Below, piece after piece: positions 13,912 through 25,715 of a stretch of 64,000 bases of DNA; position 1 is the first letter of the stretch; every line of letters begins with the position of its first letter. The notes under the pieces were generated by a model that was not told where the DNA came from, ran no database searches, and saw only the letters and a list, made by a program, of their open reading frames with translations. A program made the translations under genes and the position numbers. Origin of the DNA: a virus; the IMG/VR virus record IMGVR_UViG_3300042503_000110, positions 1 to 64,000 of that record; one strand, given 5' to 3'.

Positions 13912-14610
13912 ATGGCTTATGTCTACAGACATATCAGGTTAGATAAGAATGTACCTTTCTATATTGGATTAGGTACAGATTCTAATTATTCTAGAGCACA
14001 TCAAACTAAAAGTAGAAATCAACACTGGCATAATGTTGTAAAACACTCTGAGTATAGGGTAGAGATTATGTTAGACGATTTATCCTTTGAGGAGGCTTGT
14101 GCAAAAGAAATAGAACTGATAAGTGTGTATGGCAGAGTAGATACTTGTGGAGGTACTCTAGTTAATTGGACTGATGGAGGACAAGGTACTTTAGGTTGGA
14201 GACATGAGATAGGTTACTGGACAGGTAGGACTTTACCAGAATCTATGCGTAAGAATCTATCTGAAGTTGCTAAGTTAAGAGTAGGAGAGAAGAATCATTT
14301 TTATGGGAAATCTCACTCCGAAGAAACAAAAGAAAAACTTAGACAGTCTAGACTAGGTAGTGCTCTTCCAGAAGAAACTAAACTTAAAATAAAAGAGTCT
14401 TTAAAGAACTCTGAAGCTTTTAAGAATAGAGTTCAGGCTGTTAGGCTAGGGGCAGACAATCCTAAATCTAAACAAGTAATCAATACCGAAACAGGAGAGA
14501 CTTATGAGAACCTTAGAATAGCTTCAGAAATTACTGGAATAAACTACGATAAACTAAGATCTTACTGCCAAGGAAAAGTAAAAAGTAAAACAAATTGGAG
14601 ATATAATTAA
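13912..14610 (+). CDS. GIY-YIG homing endonuclease
   Basis: A 232-residue protein. Residues about 3-95 form a GIY-YIG nuclease domain (VYRHIRLDKNVPFYIGLG, later ELISVYGRVDTCGG and LVNWTDGGQG). The next part has NUMOD3-type DNA-binding repeats (GEKNHFYGKSHSEETKEKL and a second related copy). The C-terminus is a NUMOD1-like helix-turn-helix (TGETYENLRIASEITGI). Such enzymes cut an unoccupied allele and spread by repair. It is a free-standing gene fitted with two-base spacers between the holin-like gene and the endolysin candidate, without disturbing either frame. It is probably a selfish insertion. Confidence 0.85.
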   Translation: MAYVYRHIRLDKNVPFYIGLGTDSNYSRAHQTKSRNQHWHNVVKHSEYRVEIMLDDLSFEEACAKEIELISVYGRVDTCGGTLVNWTDGGQGTLGWRHEIGYWTGRTLPESMRKNLSEVAKLRVGEKNHFYGKSHSEETKEKLRQSRLGSALPEETKLKIKESLKNSEAFKNRVQAVRLGADNPKSKQVINTETGETYENLRIASEITGINYDKLRSYCQGKVKSKTNWRYN

Positions 14611-15263: not shown

Positions 15264-15722
15264 ATGAAAAATTGGAAGGCCCTTTGTAGTCTTCTTTTCT
15301 TAGTCAACTCCTGCTTTTGTCAAACATTGTCAAAGGCAGGGGATGGCTGGGACTTAAAAATTGATTCGGCAATCAACCTAATTAAAAACTATGACATTGA
15401 TAAGTACATAGTTTTTACTGAAGTCTGTGAGCGGATTGATTTTTGGAACAGTTCTTTTTCTTCCACAGGTATAGTTGAAGGTCGCTATACCATACTTGTA
15501 GCAGATGCAGACATTAAGTTAAATTCAATTAACAACTTAGCCTGCGTCTTAGTTCACGAAAGCCAGCATCTTTTCTACGCAAAAGAAGGCATTGTTTTAA
15601 GTGAAGCGGAAGAAGAATATAAATGCTACATGTACGAGTTGTCCTTCATCAAAAACATTCCAACCCCTGAGCCATGGTTACTGGCAAATCTTTATGAAAA
15701 ACTGCAAAAATATAGACAATGA
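15264..15722 (+). CDS. Exported small HExxH metallopeptidase-like protein
   Basis: A 152-residue protein with an N-terminal export signal (KNWKALCSLLFLVNSCFCQ). Cysteine at 17 after LVNS could be a weak lipobox, so it may be a lipoprotein or be cut by signal peptidase I. The motif LVHESQHLFYAKEG at about residues 94-107 is a zinc-peptidase HExxH, and the acidic helix SEAEEEYKCYMYE 15-20 residues later could give the third ligand, as in small gluzincins. It is therefore a candidate secreted protease working in the host periplasm or envelope. Its start directly abuts the previous stop, and its TGA overlaps the next ATG (ATGA). Activity is not proven. Confidence 0.55.
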   Translation: MKNWKALCSLLFLVNSCFCQTLSKAGDGWDLKIDSAINLIKNYDIDKYIVFTEVCERIDFWNSSFSSTGIVEGRYTILVADADIKLNSINNLACVLVHESQHLFYAKEGIVLSEAEEEYKCYMYELSFIKNIPTPEPWLLANLYEKLQKYRQ

Positions 15723-17608
15723 AAAAACTAATTCTATTTGTAGTCGGGGTAATAACCTTGGCTACTAACCTATTTGCACAAAGTGCAAACACTTCTCCAG
15801 GTACGGGCCATTGGGTTGTTATTGACTCAGGCTATCAAGTAGCTACAACTACTGTAGGACAAACAGTAGCTCCACTTCATTTTTACAACACTTCTACTTC
15901 TGAAAAGATCACAGGTATGCAGTTTCGTGTATTCTACGACAACACTGCATTTACTGCTGTAGTGCCTTCCTTAAAGATCTCTACTTCAGACCAATACCTT
16001 CAGTATGTAGATAGTAACGCACAGGGATTCTTAACTGTAACTTTAGCGTACACAGGTTCTAGTGCTAGTTTTAACTATTCTAACGGAGCAACTTTTGACC
16101 TGACTTTCACTCATGCTAGTAGTGCTATTTGGAACAACTTAGATTCTATTAAGACTATGAAAGTTGCAGGTGTTAAATCATTTGCAAACAAAGCTGCTAC
16201 TAACTGGGGTAACGACACTACTTTGGTAGTTTACTCTTACGGAGGTCGTTTCAATCAGAAAGTTTTAAGATTCGCTGCTAAGTTCAAAAACGTTACAGGC
16301 TCTGATGCTAAGAGTTTGTGGGTGTCTTTAGAAAAGAAAGCACCAACTGGGTCTTGGACTCAAGTAGATGCTAAGGCAACTAACTCTGTAGGACATGTTG
16401 TGTTTAGAGAATTTTTAGATACTACATATTGGGATGTCCGCATGGTTGTTAAAGGAGACACAATGACTCCAGGTAACGTATTCTCTACTGCGGATGCACA
16501 GAAGATTAACCAATCTATACTAGGTCAATACACTCCCTCAGGCTTTGATTACTACACAATGGATGTAAATGGAACTACTGGAGACATTAATATTGCTGAC
16601 GTATACTCTGTGTATGGAAGATTAGCTGGTAGATTTACTTCTTGGCCTAACTCTAAGAAAGACGTAATGTTCTTTACTGTCGCTGAGTACAACGCAATCA
16701 ACGGGGCTACATCTAACTTAACTTCAACTTATGCTACTGTAAATAACTTTAATTACACTATTGACGGTAGAGACTCCATTACCTATTACGTAGCAGTAAA
16801 AGGAGACGCAAACTCTACAGGATTTAAGATGGCTCGTTTGACTCCTATTAAAATTGTCAACCAAGCAAATGCTAAGAAATACATTATTGACCAAACAGTA
16901 TCTTATGACAATCCTACTTTAGATAAAGTAGAAATCAACATGCCGAAAATTACCGTGGAGAGTGGAAACTTAGTAAACGTACCAGTTAAAGTTCTTACAA
17001 ACGGAAAATCTTTGGGCGCTCTTCAGTTAGATCTTAAATACGACACATCTTACTTAGAGTTTAAGAACATTGAAATGACTGAAAAATTAATGAAGTGGAC
17101 TGCATACACTAATCCTTCAGGAGGAATTGTTTCCTGGGGAGGAGCAGACTTAACTAACACTAATCTATTGGTTGATGGAGAACAAGCATTTACCTTACAG
17201 TTTATTGCTAAAAAACCACAAGACTCTTGGGCAACCGCAGCTATCTGGACATCTGAAAAATACGTAGGTGATGACAAAGCAAAAGACATGGTAATCACTC
17301 CTACTATGGGTATCGTAGAGGTGCGTAGAAAAGGCACAGTAGCAATGAAAGATATTTCATCTATGCTGGCGTTTCCTAATCCTACAGTAGATTACGTAGA
17401 GATTCATTTTAAAGTAGAAGAAGAAAGCCAAGTTGATTTATCTCTGTACAACGAAGTAGGTCAATTAATTGAAACTATCTTACATACAAAAATGCCTAAA
17501 GGGTCATACCAATACACTACAAATCTAGAAAGATTATCTAATGGAACTTACATTTTGGTACTAAGAACAAACAAACAGTTACTAAATTCTAAACTATTAA
17601 TTATATAA
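15719..17608 (+). CDS. Secreted cohesin/dockerin-like protein with T9SS sorting domain
   Basis: A 629-residue protein. Signal peptide at residues 1-20 (KKLILFVVGVITLATNLFAQ). Residues about 37-150 and 410-500 look like cohesin-type beta sandwiches (the second has NVPVKV, then SLGALQLDLKYDTSYLEF). Residues about 254-308 are dockerin-like with two calcium-loop halves (FSTADAQKINQSILG and DVNGTTGDINIADVY, then GRLAGRF). The last 80 residues (551-629) form a type A T9SS C-terminal domain: FPNPTVDYVEI, VDLSLYNEVGQLI, LSNGTYILVL, ending in KLLII. Known T9SS cargo is moved across the outer membrane and anchored or released. A T9SS signal in a phage protein is unusual. The same dockerin-like module recurs in the gene at 20300. 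Confidence 0.75.
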   Translation: MKKLILFVVGVITLATNLFAQSANTSPGTGHWVVIDSGYQVATTTVGQTVAPLHFYNTSTSEKITGMQFRVFYDNTAFTAVVPSLKISTSDQYLQYVDSNAQGFLTVTLAYTGSSASFNYSNGATFDLTFTHASSAIWNNLDSIKTMKVAGVKSFANKAATNWGNDTTLVVYSYGGRFNQKVLRFAAKFKNVTGSDAKSLWVSLEKKAPTGSWTQVDAKATNSVGHVVFREFLDTTYWDVRMVVKGDTMTPGNVFSTADAQKINQSILGQYTPSGFDYYTMDVNGTTGDINIADVYSVYGRLAGRFTSWPNSKKDVMFFTVAEYNAINGATSNLTSTYATVNNFNYTIDGRDSITYYVAVKGDANSTGFKMARLTPIKIVNQANAKKYIIDQTVSYDNPTLDKVEINMPKITVESGNLVNVPVKVLTNGKSLGALQLDLKYDTSYLEFKNIEMTEKLMKWTAYTNPSGGIVSWGGADLTNTNLLVDGEQAFTLQFIAKKPQDSWATAAIWTSEKYVGDDKAKDMVITPTMGIVEVRRKGTVAMKDISSMLAFPNPTVDYVEIHFKVEEESQVDLSLYNEVGQLIETILHTKMPKGSYQYTTNLERLSNGTYILVLRTNKQLLNSKLLII

Positions 17609-17612
17609 AACT

Positions 17613-17963
17613 ATGAGTTTAAAGAACAAACTTGGCTTCGGCCAAGCAGAACCCGTAGCAGTCGAGCCTAACAATAGGTTTTATTACATGCTACAACAGA
17701 TGCAAGCTAATCGTTGGAGAATTACTGCCATCGTATTAGGTTTATTTTTCTTCATTATTGTTGGGATTAACTCAGCAGTATTCTTTGGAGTCGAGATTCA
17801 AGAATCTTGGAAAGAAATGTTACTTATCCTTTTTGGAGCCTTTGTAGGTAATTTGAACAAAGTAGTAGACTACTGGTTTAATTCAGAAGACCGCGACAAA
17901 ATGCTTATTCAAAAAGTAGATGAGGAGGATGGAGTATCTTTGTCTAACACAACTAACTCTTAA
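17613..17963 (+). CDS. Small two-helix membrane protein
   Basis: A 116-residue protein: soluble N-terminus of about 35 residues, two membrane helices (ITAIVLGLFFFIIVGINSAVF and EMLLILFGAFVGNLNKVV), then a charged tail (SEDRDKMLIQKVDEEDG). It resembles phage membrane proteins of the holin/antiholin class and could be a second holin or an accessory to the exported proteins around it. It lies within the tightly packed operon, with four-base gaps on both sides. No family is firmly recognised. Confidence 0.5.
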   Translation: MSLKNKLGFGQAEPVAVEPNNRFYYMLQQMQANRWRITAIVLGLFFFIIVGINSAVFFGVEIQESWKEMLLILFGAFVGNLNKVVDYWFNSEDRDKMLIQKVDEEDGVSLSNTTNS

Positions 17964-17967
17964 TATT

Positions 17968-18288
17968 ATGTCAGAAGAACAAGAAGGCGGAATGTCTGGA
18001 GTAAAGAAAGCTATTATCGGAGCCATCACCACCGCAGTTACTGCAGGTGGTGCTTGGTTCGCTACTACTTTAGGTGGTGGAGAAGAGAAAGATAATACTC
18101 CAACAGCTGTAACAGCGCCCGCACCCGTAATCAACATTACTAACAGTAATGAGAATCAACAGAAGCAACAAAATAATGGCGGTGGCAACACTGTAATTAT
18201 TAAGGAAAAAACAGTTCCTGCTCCTGCTCCTACCCCTGCGACTGCACCAGCTTCTAAACCTCCAGCAGATGAAGAAGATCCTTGGTAG
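17968..18288 (+). CDS. Single-span protein with proline-rich tail
   Basis: A 106-residue protein (MSEEQEGGMSGVKKAIIGA). An in-frame ATG at 17920 would overlap the previous gene; the start at 17968 gives a tidy four-base spacer. One membrane helix (AIIGAITTAVTAGGAWFATTL), an Asn/Gln-rich stretch (NSNENQQKQQNNGGGN), then a Pro/Ala linker (VPAPAPTPATAPASKPP) and acidic end DEEDPW. A membrane anchor plus extended Pro-rich segment is the layout of TonB-like or inner-membrane spanin proteins that span the periplasm. The gene overlaps the start of an outer-membrane lipoprotein gene by 20 bases, as spanin pairs often do. The function is inferred from layout only. Confidence 0.5.
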   Translation: MSEEQEGGMSGVKKAIIGAITTAVTAGGAWFATTLGGGEEKDNTPTAVTAPAPVINITNSNENQQKQQNNGGGNTVIIKEKTVPAPAPTPATAPASKPPADEEDPW

Positions 18289-18958
18289 CCTATTGATTGT
18301 AATCCTTGTCTATGGTTGTGGTTCTATGAAGACCACAACCGAGGATGAGGTTATTGAGAAAGCAGACATCTCTACTGTCTCTAACTATACGGACTCTATC
18401 AAGAGAACCGTACAAGTTATTAGTATGGACATGACTAAAGTATTGGCTATGTATCCAGACTTGCAAGAGAAGAACGTAGGGTTAGGTTTTGCGGAATCCG
18501 TATTAGATTATTTAGATGAGACAAATCGTTTTGTATTTACTGAGGAAAAGGGTGAAATCAAGGAAAGGATGGTAACTCAGTTCAAAGCCTCTAAAAAAGG
18601 AGTCTTTGAAGAACCCATTGATGGCAAAGGAAAGATCAAAGCAGCACAATACTTTGTGTATGTGACTGTGGCAGATTTTGCCGTAGATGAAGACGAAACT
18701 GTAGAAGGAGCTAAAGCTAAAGTAGTTGTTACTACTTTTATCCGTTTACAAGTTCGTTTTGTAGATGCAAAAACAGGACAAATCTTTATTGGCTCAGGAG
18801 AAGGAGAGTCCACTAAAACTGGAGAATCTTTTCTTAAGTCGCTAGACGGAATGAAATTTTCTCAAAGCACAGTAGGTAAGGCTACACGTAAATCACTAGA
18901 AACTGCTACAACTAAAGTGATTGAAAACCTTATCAAGAACGGTGTCTTTAAGAGTTAA
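18269..18958 (+). CDS. CsgG-like outer-membrane lipoprotein
   Basis: A 229-residue protein with a lipoprotein signal (MKKILGSLLIVILVYGC; lipidated Cys17). The body resembles the CsgG family that forms the curli secretion pore: NVGLGFAESVLDYLDETNRFVFTE matches the 'G.g....e.l...L..t.rF.v.er' pattern, followed by AAQYFVYVTVADFAVDED, then IRLQVRFVDAKTGQIF and a C-terminal helix VGKATRKSLETATTKVIENL. CsgG monomers assemble into an outer-membrane ring. Other members of this broad family are plain periplasmic lipoproteins, so pore formation is not assured. It overlaps both neighbours. A phage-encoded CsgG-like protein next to a putative barrel protein is notable. Confidence 0.6.
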   Translation: MKKILGSLLIVILVYGCGSMKTTTEDEVIEKADISTVSNYTDSIKRTVQVISMDMTKVLAMYPDLQEKNVGLGFAESVLDYLDETNRFVFTEEKGEIKERMVTQFKASKKGVFEEPIDGKGKIKAAQYFVYVTVADFAVDEDETVEGAKAKVVVTTFIRLQVRFVDAKTGQIFIGSGEGESTKTGESFLKSLDGMKFSQSTVGKATRKSLETATTKVIENLIKNGVFKS

Positions 18959-20303
18959 CATATTAATCTTGTTTATGTGTATAGGACTGAGTTTAAACGC
19001 TCAGTCCTTTACATATTCGTACACAGACCCGTGTACAAAAGAGCTAAAGTTTATATTCGCAGATATGAACTCTCCTATAGTGATTAGTTACTATGGGCAA
19101 GTCAGAAGTTTTAATTACGCAGAACTTCAGGATGGTACATTTGACAATTGGTTAAATAGTACCTACTTGAATTTTCGAAACGCTAAACCCTGCGAAGGAG
19201 TATTTTCAACAACTACAACCACTACCTCAACTAATACAGTAACATCTTTAGTTAGTAGTGTGATGAATTTAAACTCAATATCTAGTTTAGATTTATCCTC
19301 AACTTCTATGGGATCTAGTACCTCTATAGGAAGTACAACATCTTCAGGAACAACAAGTACAGACAGTAAAAATGAAAGTTCGAACGACAAGCCCAGTAGC
19401 AATGGAGATAATAATTCTACTGGTAATTCTGGGGATAACTCTGGTCAAGGTGGCGAATCATCTGGACAAGGGTCCAATACGTCGCAAGGACAAGTAAGTG
19501 TTGGGAGCAAATCTAAGGGAGGCTCTGGCGGAAGTGGTGGAAGTGGCGGAGAGGGCGAAACTCCAGCCGAAGAAAAAACCCCTGAAAAAATTGAAGAACA
19601 AAAGTCCGAAACCCAACAAGCAGGCGGAAGTGCGTCTGCAAAGTCAGCAGCAAAAGGTAAAGTAGAAACACAGAAACCAGCTATCCTAGTTACAGGAGAC
19701 ATTGTAGGTGTTCAGACAGTTAAAGACCAAGCACAAGACGCGCGTGGTACTATGTCTTTTACTCGTGTTAAAGGAGATGGCACAGCTTCAATTGGATTGT
19801 CTGCTGACTATATGGTTAATGCAAAGATTGGAAACTTTAACGGTATGCGATCTTGGATGGGCGTTAACAAAAAAGGACACAAGCACATTAACGTATTATC
19901 TGCGGGAATTAACTTAATGCCTAGGTCTTACAACGGCTCATTGCTTTTTGTAAGAGTAAACTCGCTTAAAAACTTTACAGCTCTGTACGGAGCAGCCGCT
20001 TCTTACGGAGAGTTATTTAAAGAAGAAGTAATCTCTACTCTTCTTATAGGAGGTTTTATGTACAAAGGACAACTAACTAAACATATTGACGCTACCATTA
20101 TCGCAGCTAGTGTGTACGCACCATACACAAAATACTACACTGAGAGTTTGTTTGAGTCTCAGCCTATTATAGTTCCGTTCCTAAACATTAACTATTCTAT
20201 AACTAAGACTTTTAAATTTGGCTTAACCGCAGGAGGTACGTATATCGCAAACCAGGATATAGTAAACTATCAAGTCTTAATGGGAGGTAAACTAAAGATA
20301 TGA
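18921..20303 (+). CDS. Exported protein with low-complexity linker and putative OM beta barrel
   Basis: A 460-residue protein. Export signal at residues about 1-27 (basic start, then VNILILFMCIGLSLNA). A small N-terminal domain (SYTDPCTKELKFIF, ISYYGQVRSFNY) precedes a Ser/Thr/Gly-rich stretch (residues about 95-245, including GGSGGSGGSGGEGE and a charged EKTPEKIEEQ). Residues about 265-460 alternate polar and hydrophobic amphipathic strands (ASIGLSADYMVNAKIG, INVLSAGINLMP, FKFGLTAGGTYIA) and could form an 8-10-strand outer-membrane barrel. The N-terminal part would then sit on one side of the outer membrane. The start overlaps the lipoprotein gene by 38 bases, which supplies the basic n-region of the signal. 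Confidence 0.55.
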   Translation: MKTLSRTVSLRVNILILFMCIGLSLNAQSFTYSYTDPCTKELKFIFADMNSPIVISYYGQVRSFNYAELQDGTFDNWLNSTYLNFRNAKPCEGVFSTTTTTTSTNTVTSLVSSVMNLNSISSLDLSSTSMGSSTSIGSTTSSGTTSTDSKNESSNDKPSSNGDNNSTGNSGDNSGQGGESSGQGSNTSQGQVSVGSKSKGGSGGSGGSGGEGETPAEEKTPEKIEEQKSETQQAGGSASAKSAAKGKVETQKPAILVTGDIVGVQTVKDQAQDARGTMSFTRVKGDGTASIGLSADYMVNAKIGNFNGMRSWMGVNKKGHKHINVLSAGINLMPRSYNGSLLFVRVNSLKNFTALYGAAASYGELFKEEVISTLLIGGFMYKGQLTKHIDATIIAASVYAPYTKYYTESLFESQPIIVPFLNINYSITKTFKFGLTAGGTYIANQDIVNYQVLMGGKLKI

Positions 20304-21283
20304 GATGGCTGATTGTTCTTTTTTTATTCTCGTCTCCTCTAATAGCACAATTTACCTATTCGGGATATCTCTATAATGCGAATGGTTCTGGCGCAGCTAA
20401 CGTGGCTGTTAAACTGTACAGAAGAACAAACTCAACCATTGCAGGATTTACTAACCAACAAAATTATAATGGACACTCTTACTATCGTTCTACTGGAAGT
20501 GCTACTTGGACTACTGCTAGGTCTAACTGTGTAGCTATGGGTGGACACTTAGTAACCATTACAACTTCAGGTGAACAATCATTTATATTTAATATATGGC
20601 CTTCAGGATGGATAGGACTAACAGATGAAGTCAGTGAAGGTACTTGGAGATGGGTAACAGGAGAAACTTATTCTTATACTAACTGGAACTCTGGAGAACC
20701 AAACAATGCAGGTAATGAAGACTACGTACAGTTTGTATCTAATGGAAGGTGGAATGACTTACCTAACAACTACAATCTTCCTTATGTACTAGAGTTTGAA
20801 TATTTAGTTACAACTTCTTCTTGGACTCTCTATAAAACAATCTATACTAACTCTTCAGGTTATTATTCTATTTCAGAAGCCTACGATCCATCAAAGGAAT
20901 ACTATATTCAGATAGATGCGCCTACCAGAGTTCAAGCCTACACCAATGCAGACATACAAAACATTTCTAATATTATCTTAGGTAAGACTACAATTAACGG
21001 TCTTACCTATCATAGATTTGATCTTAATGACGACGGGCGAATAAACATAGCTGACAAGTATTATCTATCTGGTAGAAAGGCAGGAAGATTTAATCGGTGG
21101 AAAACTGCACCTGATGTAAGAATCTTCACACTTGCTCAGTATAATGCTATAGTCGCATCTAAAGTAAATGTGCGCACAACTTACCCTGGAGTAGCTACAT
21201 TTACAACCTCAACACTTACTACAGGAGGAACACTAAACTTATATCTTATTGCTCCAGGGTACTCAGGACAAGTAACTTATTAA
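20300..21283 (+). CDS. Secreted C-type lectin with dockerin-like module
   Basis: A 327-residue protein. Signal peptide about residues 1-16 (RWLIVLFLFSSPLIAQ). A carboxypeptidase-regulatory-like beta domain (GYLYNANGSGAANVAVKLY) begins and, after the lectin, appears to resume (IYTNSSGYYSISEAYDPS), so the C-type lectin domain (residues about 54-172) is inserted in it. The lectin has GWIGLTDEVSEGTWRWVTGE, the calcium/sugar motif EPN in NSGEPNNAGNEDYV, and WND in GRWNDLP. Residues about 213-267 are a dockerin-like module (TNADIQNISNIILG, then DLNDDGRINIADKYY and GRKAGRF) clearly homologous to that in the gene at 15719. No T9SS tail is present. Predicted to be exported and to bind glycans. Confidence 0.7.
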   Translation: MRWLIVLFLFSSPLIAQFTYSGYLYNANGSGAANVAVKLYRRTNSTIAGFTNQQNYNGHSYYRSTGSATWTTARSNCVAMGGHLVTITTSGEQSFIFNIWPSGWIGLTDEVSEGTWRWVTGETYSYTNWNSGEPNNAGNEDYVQFVSNGRWNDLPNNYNLPYVLEFEYLVTTSSWTLYKTIYTNSSGYYSISEAYDPSKEYYIQIDAPTRVQAYTNADIQNISNIILGKTTINGLTYHRFDLNDDGRINIADKYYLSGRKAGRFNRWKTAPDVRIFTLAQYNAIVASKVNVRTTYPGVATFTTSTLTTGGTLNLYLIAPGYSGQVTY

Positions 21284-21285
21284 CC

Positions 21286-21726
21286 ATGAAAAAACTAATT
21301 ATAATTCTCACAGCTGCTATTACAGCATCGTTAAGCGGTCAATGTTACAAAATTGACACAGTTAGAAATCACACACAGATGAAGGAACTTGCAGGGAGAC
21401 CTGTAGATTTTGGAATTGTAACAACAGCCGAACAATTAATTGCAGATAAGTATAGTATTTGTGACACAGGCATTAAGGTAGACTTAGCACTAAACACTAT
21501 TGGTATTCCAGAAAGAATAATTAACATTGCAGGAATCCAGTTACTAAAAAGAGACTATATAGTAAATATGTCCATTACTGCTAATAACATTACACATTAT
21601 TCTAGGCACATTAAGACAGTTTACGTAAATGCAATGTTCTTAACTGTAGAGCAAATTCCTCACAATAAAAAAGCCTATTCAAAAGCAGTTGAGAAGTGTT
21701 TAATAGATTTAGTTAAGAAGTTATAG
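21286..21726 (+). CDS. Small exported protein, function unknown
   Basis: A 146-residue protein with an N-terminal signal (KKLIIILTAAITASLSGQ) and cysteines at about 20 and 58. The mature part is mixed alpha/beta (GIQLLKRDYIVNMSITANN, HIKTVYVNAMFLTVEQIP) and ends in a basic helix AVEKCLIDLVKKL. The strand-then-helix ending is vaguely like small periplasmic lipoproteins of the LptE/CsgG-accessory sort, but I recognise no family. It is the last gene of the exported cluster, with a two-base gap to the lectin gene. Confidence 0.5.
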   Translation: MKKLIIILTAAITASLSGQCYKIDTVRNHTQMKELAGRPVDFGIVTTAEQLIADKYSICDTGIKVDLALNTIGIPERIINIAGIQLLKRDYIVNMSITANNITHYSRHIKTVYVNAMFLTVEQIPHNKKAYSKAVEKCLIDLVKKL

Positions 21727-23702: not shown

Positions 23703-25715
23703 ATGCATTTAGACAGTCCAGAATTTTTAATTAACGTAAAGTCTTTGCCTGACCCAGAGTCAGCAGAGTATACTGCGTTTTGGCAAAATGAGGACAAAAA
23801 GATAAATGAAGGAGTAACTATAAATGGTTTCTACTTTTCTCCTTTTGTATACTGGCATTTAAATTTTGGGGCCTTATACATTGACGAAAAGGTAGGAAAT
23901 AGAAATATAAGGAAACTAGGTAAGCCCCAGTTATGGGATACATACCTAGAAGTGGATGATGCGATTTACCGCGCAGAGAATCACCCAGATGGAAAGAAAG
24001 GTCTGGTGATAGTAGGTAGTCGACGTATTTCAAAAACCATTCTTACATCTTCATACATTGCCCATAAGGCAATTACACTTCAGGGAGGGGACAATCTAAT
24101 TTCCGCTCTAAACCAACCTGACTTGAATAACACTACTCAAGCCGTGGATCTTATTTTGCGTAACCTCCCTGATTATTTTAGATTCCCCCGTATTGAAGAC
24201 GACTGGAAACGTCAAGTAACTTTAGGTTACAAAGACAAAAAGTCCAACGCAAGACACGAGTGGTCTAAGATACATGTAAGAAACTTTGACGAAGGGAACA
24301 ATACGGAAGCAGCAGCAGGTCTTACTCTATCCTCTTTCATGCTTGAAGAAGCAGGTAAAGGCAGAATCTTGAACTGCTTGGCTGCGACTATCCCATGTTT
24401 TGACTCACCTTATGGATGGCGTTGTTCTCCTATTGTAATTGGAACATCGGGAGACATGACTAAGGCAGGAGACTTAGAAGAACTTTTTAATAACCCTGAC
24501 GCATATAACTTTCTTCCCGTAGCTGTAGAAGAGTCTGGAAAGTCTTACGGACTATTTGTCCCAGGAACAAAGTCTCTTAAAGTACCTAAAGAACCAACTC
24601 CTCTTGGACTTTACCTAGAGAAAGAAGATCCTTCTGAACTAGATAACATTACTATTTGGGTAGCCAACCAAGACAAGGGTAAGGAAATGATTATAAAGAA
24701 CAGGGAGCAAGTTAAAAAAGCCTCTGGTCTTGAAGCTTATCTAAAGGAGGTCATGTACTACCCGCTCACGCACGAGGAGTGTTTTATGGAAATGTCACAG
24801 AACATTTTTCCTGTAGACCTTCTTCAGGAGCAATTACAGAAACTTGTAGCAAATGAAGTACGTGCAGATTTTGTAGAATTGTACGTAAAGCCTGATGGAA
24901 AAGTAGGACACAAGTTCACGGATAAAAAGCCTGTAGAAAACTTTCCAACTAAACCAGCAGATAATCTAGAAGGCGTAACCCAAATATGGGAGTATCCTAT
25001 TCTAGATGCACCTTATGGACTTTATACAGCAGGGACTGACCCATACAAACAATCTCAAGCACAATACTCTACTTCATTAGGATCTACTTACATTTATAAA
25101 AGAGTTCATAATCTTTCAGGTGAAGGTTGGCAGAATATTGTTGTGGCCGCATACACAGGTCGTCCTAAGAAGATTGACATGTGGTACGAGAATACCAAGA
25201 ACCTATTAAAATTCTATAATGCCAAGAGTCTTTGTGAAAACATGGACTATGGTTTTATTCAACACTGCGTAGAGAAAAATGAAGGTGCACGTATTCTAGA
25301 ACGTACTCCATCATTCTTAACGGACATCCACCCCAACTCTATGGTAAACCGTGACTACGGAATACACATGACCAAAGAGATTAAGGCTTATCTACTAGGT
25401 CTTATTATCGAGTATATAACTGAAGTCATTGATGTAGAGCGTGATGCAGCAGGAAATATTACAAAAGAACGCTTAGGTGTAACTAGAATTTTAGATCCCC
25501 TTTTGATAAAAGAATTAATAAAATATACACCAAAACTCAATGTTGACCGTATTATTGCATTTGGTTTGACATTGGCTATGACTCGAAGTCTTTCTAATAA
25601 AATTACCATCCATAGTAATGCAGAGGACGACAGGATTAGAGAATACTTTCAAACCAAAAAAACTTCTAGTCCATTTAGGATTGGAGGATCAACACCATTT
25701 TCAAGATTTAGATAA
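23703..25715 (+). CDS. terL: Terminase large subunit
   Basis: A 670-residue packaging motor with ATPase and nuclease. The Walker A-like loop GSRRISKT lies at residues 105-112, with Ser in place of the usual second Gly. The Walker B stretch SSFMLEEAGK is near residues 208-217. The nuclease (RNase H-like) part includes YTAGTDPYKQ near residue 445 and CENMDYGF near 510. It matches the size and layout of crAss-like TerL. It translocates DNA into the prohead and cuts it at the end of packaging. It is preceded by the small terminase candidate and followed after eight bases by the portal gene, the classical head operon order. Confidence 0.9.
   Translation: MHLDSPEFLINVKSLPDPESAEYTAFWQNEDKKINEGVTINGFYFSPFVYWHLNFGALYIDEKVGNRNIRKLGKPQLWDTYLEVDDAIYRAENHPDGKKGLVIVGSRRISKTILTSSYIAHKAITLQGGDNLISALNQPDLNNTTQAVDLILRNLPDYFRFPRIEDDWKRQVTLGYKDKKSNARHEWSKIHVRNFDEGNNTEAAAGLTLSSFMLEEAGKGRILNCLAATIPCFDSPYGWRCSPIVIGTSGDMTKAGDLEELFNNPDAYNFLPVAVEESGKSYGLFVPGTKSLKVPKEPTPLGLYLEKEDPSELDNITIWVANQDKGKEMIIKNREQVKKASGLEAYLKEVMYYPLTHEECFMEMSQNIFPVDLLQEQLQKLVANEVRADFVELYVKPDGKVGHKFTDKKPVENFPTKPADNLEGVTQIWEYPILDAPYGLYTAGTDPYKQSQAQYSTSLGSTYIYKRVHNLSGEGWQNIVVAAYTGRPKKIDMWYENTKNLLKFYNAKSLCENMDYGFIQHCVEKNEGARILERTPSFLTDIHPNSMVNRDYGIHMTKEIKAYLLGLIIEYITEVIDVERDAAGNITKERLGVTRILDPLLIKELIKYTPKLNVDRIIAFGLTLAMTRSLSNKITIHSNAEDDRIREYFQTKKTSSPFRIGGSTPFSRFR

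Follow-up and report, generated by a model that had tools for sequence, protein, structure and literature searches.

Type IX secretion system (T9SS) tags on phage proteins are already known from two published accounts, of which the parts available to us describe T9SS sorting domains in the crAss-BACON cluster 2 phages (2019, PMC6949934) and T9SS-tagged genes with variable cargo in Cryophage (Bellas et al. 2020, PMC7468147). For Cryophage, use of the host T9SS was presumed, and superinfection exclusion was one of the roles suggested. In these parts of the two accounts the tag is carried by the functional protein itself (endoglucanase, GH39, PA14 or BACON), and neither cohesin nor dockerin is mentioned. 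Text searches of the literature, which covered open-licence papers, returned no recognised phage cohesin-dockerin system.

The DNA analysed here, referred to as the window, comprises 64,000 nucleotides (positions 1 to 64,000) of IMG/VR record IMGVR_UViG_3300042503_000110, a record of 78,728 bases that encodes phage terminase, portal and major head genes. An earlier note on this sequence reported a T9SS sorting domain on a phage-encoded protein and proposed that the phage displays its own product through the host T9SS. The tag proved to be real, but the note had overlooked both the phage precedents in print and the fact that the tag belongs to a cohesin- and dockerin-like scaffold within a multi-gene cassette. 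In contrast to the tagged proteins of Cryophage and the crAss-BACON phages, as far as the available parts of those accounts describe them, the tagged protein of the window is a scaffold, and the binding module resides on a separate protein. On our best reading of the sequences, this combination of a scaffold with a separate, swappable cargo is new relative to the phage T9SS proteins described there.

Results

The scaffold gene (15719-17608; plus strand, as are all cassette genes described below) encodes a protein of 629 residues arranged as a signal peptide, cohesin 1, an X-like module, a dockerin-like module, cohesin 2 and a T9SS C-terminal sorting domain (CTD). The CTD is of type A and occupies residues 552-628 (17372-17602), where the earlier note had placed it, with matches to TIGR04183 (35.8 bits, cut-off 23, E 6e-9) and, in a second library, to PF18962 (42.8 bits, cut-off 27). 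The motifs on which the original assignment was based, FPNPTVDYVEI, VDLSLYNEVGQLI and LSNGTYILVL, are all present in the C-terminus. The basic end that was also described holds for many relatives, which end in lysine, but not for the window copy, which ends in NSKLLII with a single lysine five residues from the end. Residues P553, N554, P555, F564, G581, G595, Y599, L606, G609 and Y611 were invariant in 32 diverse copies, and a profile of 32 diverse scaffolds matched the solved T9SS sorting domains 8glk_D (E 2.3e-4) and 8glj_D (E 0.001). The CTD is the quickest-changing part of the scaffold; across 76 sequences its mean identity to the window copy was 46%, against values between 74 and 89% elsewhere in the folded parts. 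Despite this fast drift, its median dN/dS of 0.18 indicated purifying selection.

The scaffold N-terminus, MKKLILFVVGVITLATNLFAQ, resembles a Bacteroidota Sec signal peptide by its sequence and by a crude rule, in agreement with the Sec signal noted previously. The predicted signal peptide spans residues 1-21 (15719-15781), with cleavage after FAQ or nearby, as judged from sequence reading, conservation of Q21 (invariant in 18 rows) and the same rule, which was positive for 129 of 132 fused scaffolds compared to 400 of 1033 other ORFs longer than 200 residues.

The cohesin family PF00963 matched the whole scaffold at 43.7 bits (cut-off 24.1) over two stretches, the better of which covers residues 405-524. 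Cohesin 2 (residues 399-535, 16913-17323) was identified by family score above cut-off and by fold, in that its best Foldseek matches were cellulosomal cohesins and cohesins of cohesin-dockerin complexes, with TM-scores of up to 0.80 over the target. The scaffold structure model (18 rows) had a mean pLDDT of 50, with higher values over most of cohesin 2, which was the only part used; a model of the cargo protein (20 rows) was discarded at a mean pLDDT of 42. Cohesin 1 (residues 24-183, 15788-16267) is a borderline case. When cut out alone, the window copy scored 24.3 bits against the PF00963 cut-off of 24.1, and among five relatives three fell below the cut-off and two had no match. Since comparing the two profiles revealed no relationship between cohesin 1 and cohesin 2, the identity of cohesin 1 leans on this borderline Pfam score.

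Profile comparison placed an X-like (Ig/transthyretin-like) plus dockerin-like module between the cohesins (residues 186-308, 16274-16642). Its loop, DVNGTTGDINIAD, retains D282, N284 and D294 as invariant residues in 32 rows, and the profile of 32 diverse scaffolds matched a solved dockerin, 4uyp_B (E 0.012), from a cellulosomal adaptor scaffoldin. This region is related to the C-terminus of the cargo protein described below (profile comparison, probability 99.8), and the best PDB match for a profile of 25 cargo docking ends was a cellulosomal scaffoldin (2b59_B, E 0.001), which we take to be an X-dockerin pair. The dockerin-like modules keep just one clear calcium loop, with a conserved D-x-N. 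Because the cargo proteins scanned did not reach the cut-off of the Pfam dockerin family (PF00404, 22.9 bits; 13.2 for the window cargo and 17.0 for the best of the others), the term dockerin is used here for resemblance only. The docking module was found in all 27 cassette records surveyed, on the scaffold or adaptor and on the cargo (twice in 26 records and three times in one), and in none of six control phages; the window's record likewise has two copies.

The cargo gene (20300-21283) encodes 327 residues that form a signal peptide, an X-like module interrupted by a C-type lectin domain, and a dockerin-like module; no T9SS tag was found in the protein. The lectin domain (residues 55-166, 20462-20797) scored 63.7 bits against PF00059 (cut-off 22.6) and carries the EPN and WND calcium-site residues of C-type lectins, both of which were invariant in 21 lectin-type rows. 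The EPN motif denotes mannose-type C-type lectins, and the best PDB matches of the domain include mannose receptors. Unlike these, the window lectin interrupts an X-like module within a phage protein, and its sugar specificity is a prediction.

The X-like and dockerin-like modules that form the cargo's docking end (20831-21280) stay conserved while the front module is exchanged among relatives. The front may be a C-type lectin, a LamG-interrupted lectin, PA14, GEVED or an unnamed module or fold, and domain scans found lectin, PA14, GEVED, LamG and Ig_7 modules. No enzyme family exceeded its cut-off in the scanned cargo proteins, so that the dockerin-bearing enzymes of a cellulosome were not found among them. 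On a tree of 64 scaffolds the front-module type, assigned by motif patterns in place of complete domain scans of the individual copies, changed at least 24 times, where six labels require a minimum of 5 changes; two typings that differed slightly in their labels both gave 24. The labels were nonetheless more clustered on the tree than when shuffled (mean of 31.6 changes, with a value as low in 0 of 200 shuffles). Two scaffolds that are 97.3% identical (L004 and L007) carry different cargo modules. One group of cargo proteins (L119:11329-12999 and relatives) has a nested insertion, with LamG inside a C-type lectin that is itself inside an X-like module.

The remaining cassette genes were compared with those of Flavobacterium phage immuto (MW353175), a cultured relative in which the cassette corresponds to gp13-gp19; loci with more than 6 kb downstream (n = 53) were used to count the genes beyond the scaffold. 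Upstream, a small exported protein with a HESQH motif (15264-15722; 52 of 55 loci) overlaps the scaffold start by ATGA. The HExxH motif was present in all 119 homologous ORFs, and the protein is perhaps a protease that processes cassette proteins. The scaffold is followed by a membrane protein (17613-17963; 50 of 53 loci) and a small membrane protein with a Pro/Ala/Gln-rich tail (17965-18288, the ORF being listed from 17920; 53 of 53; immuto gp16). The next gene (18269-18958; 53 of 53) encodes an exported protein that faintly resembles CsgG and shares 43% identity with immuto gp17. The label of a CsgG pore was rejected, as PF03783 scored 14.8 bits against a cut-off of 20.8 and three relatives had no match; a crude pattern found a lipobox-like motif in 89 of 162 homologous ORFs. 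The exported protein encoded at 18921-20303 (53 of 53; immuto gp18; start uncertain) has a low-complexity middle and a beta-rich-looking end, and by eye is suspected to be an outer-membrane barrel. The cassette ends, beyond the cargo gene, with a small exported protein (21286-21726; 53 of 53; immuto gp19). In the window, the cassette sits between tail-fibre-like genes and the terminase, with lysozyme-like and holin-like genes nearby; a lysozyme-like gene was present in 39 of 55 loci. An ORF that by eye looks like a GIY-YIG homing endonuclease (13912-14610) lies between the holin-like and lysozyme-like genes and was matched in only 11 of 55 loci.

IMG/VR was scanned with the scaffold (97 relatives, 80 kept), and a second scan used an independent gene, immuto gp17 (115 relatives, 80 kept); the searches overlap and may share contigs (L085 and L091, for example), so that locus counts are not counts of independent genomes. 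A separate cargo gene was present in all 50 scaffold loci with more than 6.5 kb downstream and in all 49 gp17-scan loci with long flanks on both sides. Among the 74 gp17-scan loci with more than 2.6 kb upstream, every one had a cohesin ORF and 73 had an ORF with both cohesin and CTD, the single miss being a shortened cohesin ORF. The scaffold was fused in 52 gp17-scan loci and split in 21. In 27 large cassette records, the terminase family of the window had a strong match in 6, a weak match in 4 and none in 17, the last group including immuto and contigs of 271, 306 and 309 kb. From these 17 records, the cassette appears to move between phage lineages, although the terminase region may be missing from some records because they are incomplete.

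TIGR04183 was above cut-off in 50 of 51 cassette records (50 of the 80 kept loci plus immuto), the sole miss being a record with a broken ORF (L029). In a second set of 50 records (49 loci from L085-L170 plus a Leptolyngbya phage), 48 were above cut-off, including one in which the match falls in a different protein (L167); the two misses were one control phage and one 18-kb fragment. No match above cut-off was obtained in 11 related phages without the cassette, namely the Leptolyngbya phage and ten crAss-like or related phages (Cellulophaga, Flavobacterium, Bacteroides, Azobacteroides and gut). The contrast between the two cassette sets and these controls indicated that the CTD matches are above chance. 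In one cassette-bearing phage, a T9SS-like domain (29.9 bits) forms the end of a lysozyme-like protein (L184:1109-1993) that resembles phage tail lysins. This protein lacks an obvious signal peptide and therefore fits no export route.

In immuto, which was cultured on Flavobacterium sp. LMO8, the scaffold is split into two exported proteins, gp14, which carries a cohesin-1-like region and the X/dockerin-like module, and gp15, which carries a cohesin and the T9SS tag. The two halves are 31% and 28% identical to the window scaffold, compared to 49% for the lectin cargo and 43% for the CsgG-like protein. The immuto cassette differs from that of the window in that the cargo gene comes first and the genome neighbourhood is another one, with the cassette placed among replication and nucleotide genes and not among structural ones. 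No counterpart of the 17613-17963 family or of the HExxH protein was found in immuto, nor was there a match to the window's terminase family.

The host of the window phage is likely a T9SS bearer. Flavobacterium has a T9SS, and the sole cultured relative with a host label, immuto, infects a member of this genus. Two observations counted against such a host. A search for two peptide patterns in 84,980 species genomes, which reaches close relatives only and so is no evidence that hosts are without the family, returned one relative, a 16.5-kb contig binned in a Sphingomonadaceae MAG; this contig is probably mis-binned. The window terminase (23703-25715) is closest (40%) to that of the Leptolyngbya boryana phage PP438436, in which neither a T9SS tag nor a docking module was found. 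Either the host label of PP438436 is unsure or the lineage has crossed phyla.

Discussion

At the level of sequence, the sorting domain and cohesin 2 are established parts of the scaffold, and export through the host T9SS would be the most economical reading of the tag. We infer, with slightly better than even confidence, that the infected cell shows a glycan-binder chosen by the phage, through the host T9SS and cohesin-dockerin-like docking. The scaffold would pass through Sec, after which the host T9SS would recognise the CTD and fix the scaffold on the outer face of the cell. The dockerin-like module of the cargo would then plug into a scaffold cohesin, and the scaffold's own dockerin-like module would plug into a second cohesin. 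In the split form, as in immuto, gp15 would be anchored, with the adaptor gp14 plugged into gp15 and gp13 into gp14; in the fused form, the dockerin-like module may chain scaffolds together. The existence of both split (21) and fused (52) scaffolds links adaptor and anchor. The displayed glycan-binding module would be exchanged in evolution by swapping the cargo front. The untagged cargo might cross the outer membrane through the T9SS together with the scaffold or via other proteins of the cassette, or it might be set free when the cell lyses.

The points in favour of display are the CTD scores above cut-off, the purifying selection on the CTD, the fold match of cohesin 2, the X-dockerin match of the cargo end, the constant pairing of scaffold and cargo, the docking module that they share, and the 24 front-module changes. 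Set against them are dockerin-like modules below the Pfam cut-off, a borderline cohesin 1, poor structure models and a cargo without a tag.

The proposed assembly resembles a cellulosome in its cohesins, its X-module/dockerin pair, its surface-anchored cohesin and the swappable modules on dockerin carriers. Cellulosomes are anchored by S-layer or sortase mechanisms, whereas the window assembly is phage-encoded and would use a T9SS tag as anchor. It differs further in that its modules are glycan-binding, with no enzyme found, its dockerins fall below the Pfam cut-off, and there is mostly one cargo per phage. Whether the whole amounts to a cellulosome-like chain of anchor, adaptor and cargo, held by cohesin-dockerin contacts, mounted by the T9SS and bearing a quickly exchanged glycan-binding head, with one cassette common to unrelated phages on contigs as long as 309 kb, is in our estimate evenly balanced.

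The likeliest use of the displayed module may be to mask or cross-link host surface sugars and so to keep rival phages, or progeny of the same phage, from adsorbing to a lost cell. Masking is a guess. We prefer it to adhesion on the grounds that the exchange of modules suits an arms race over surface sugars and that a role in superinfection exclusion has already been suggested for Cryophage. Expression of the cassette may be too late for exclusion, since in the window it adjoins lysozyme-like and tail-fibre-like genes. With the same anatomy and the varied cargo modules (lectin, PA14, LamG, GEVED), a surface lectin could instead glue infected cells together or attach them to algae or particles, where progeny would meet new hosts. 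We consider this adhesive role unlikely, although the evidence presented here fits it and masking equally well. The tagged protein could also be displayed alone, with the second protein undocked, as proposed for other phages in the parts of the published accounts available to us. Those precedents and the low Pfam scores of the dockerin-like modules speak for such a plain T9SS cargo, which is quite unlikely given that scaffold and cargo keep constant company, have a docking module in common and occur with both split and fused scaffolds.

Glycan-binding modules are common on phage particles, and scaffold and cargo, once at the surface or in the lysate, might coat released virions and so provide them with a lectin that attaches to cells or particles. 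The position of the window cassette between tail-fibre-like genes and terminase is consistent with this, as is the lysozyme-like protein with a T9SS-like tail in L184. Virion decoration is decidedly improbable, however, as scaffold and cargo both carry signal peptides, the immuto cassette lies outside the structural genes and the T9SS tag is maintained under selection. A relic tag on proteins that act inside the envelope during lysis would account for the nearby lysozyme-like and holin-like genes of the window and for the lysozyme-like gene in 39 of 55 loci. The invariant CTD motifs in 32 diverse copies and the dN/dS of 0.18 argue in the other direction, and no gene annotated as lysozyme or endolysin lies directly beside the immuto cassette, which makes a periplasmic function very improbable.

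If display through the host T9SS is correct, phages remodel the exterior of Bacteroidota cells with a two-part system, and not with a single surface protein, and this system is common to unrelated phages. The cassette is carried by many phages of aquatic Bacteroidota-type bacteria and looks built for a host-secreted plug-and-socket scaffold. The swappable cargo heads would form a naturally occurring collection of glycan binders that share one plug, and immuto with Flavobacterium sp. LMO8 is one cultured pair with a whole cassette, which makes testing simple.

Further T9SS-tagged exported proteins were observed in contigs of the cassette group (L183:1588-2637 and L185:1907-3529). The latter adjoins a gene that by eye is YceI-like, and may thus represent either host sequence or a gene that was acquired. 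Small T9SS-tagged proteins of 186 and 199 residues were also present in two huge uncultured phages of 642 and 635 kb (LR756502, L181:7647-8207, and LR745206, L182:7605-8204, respectively). No cohesin was found with these proteins; each combines a T9SS sorting domain (49.1 and 42.1 bits) with a short domain and a signal-like start, and each gene lies directly after one that by eye is DnaJ-like.
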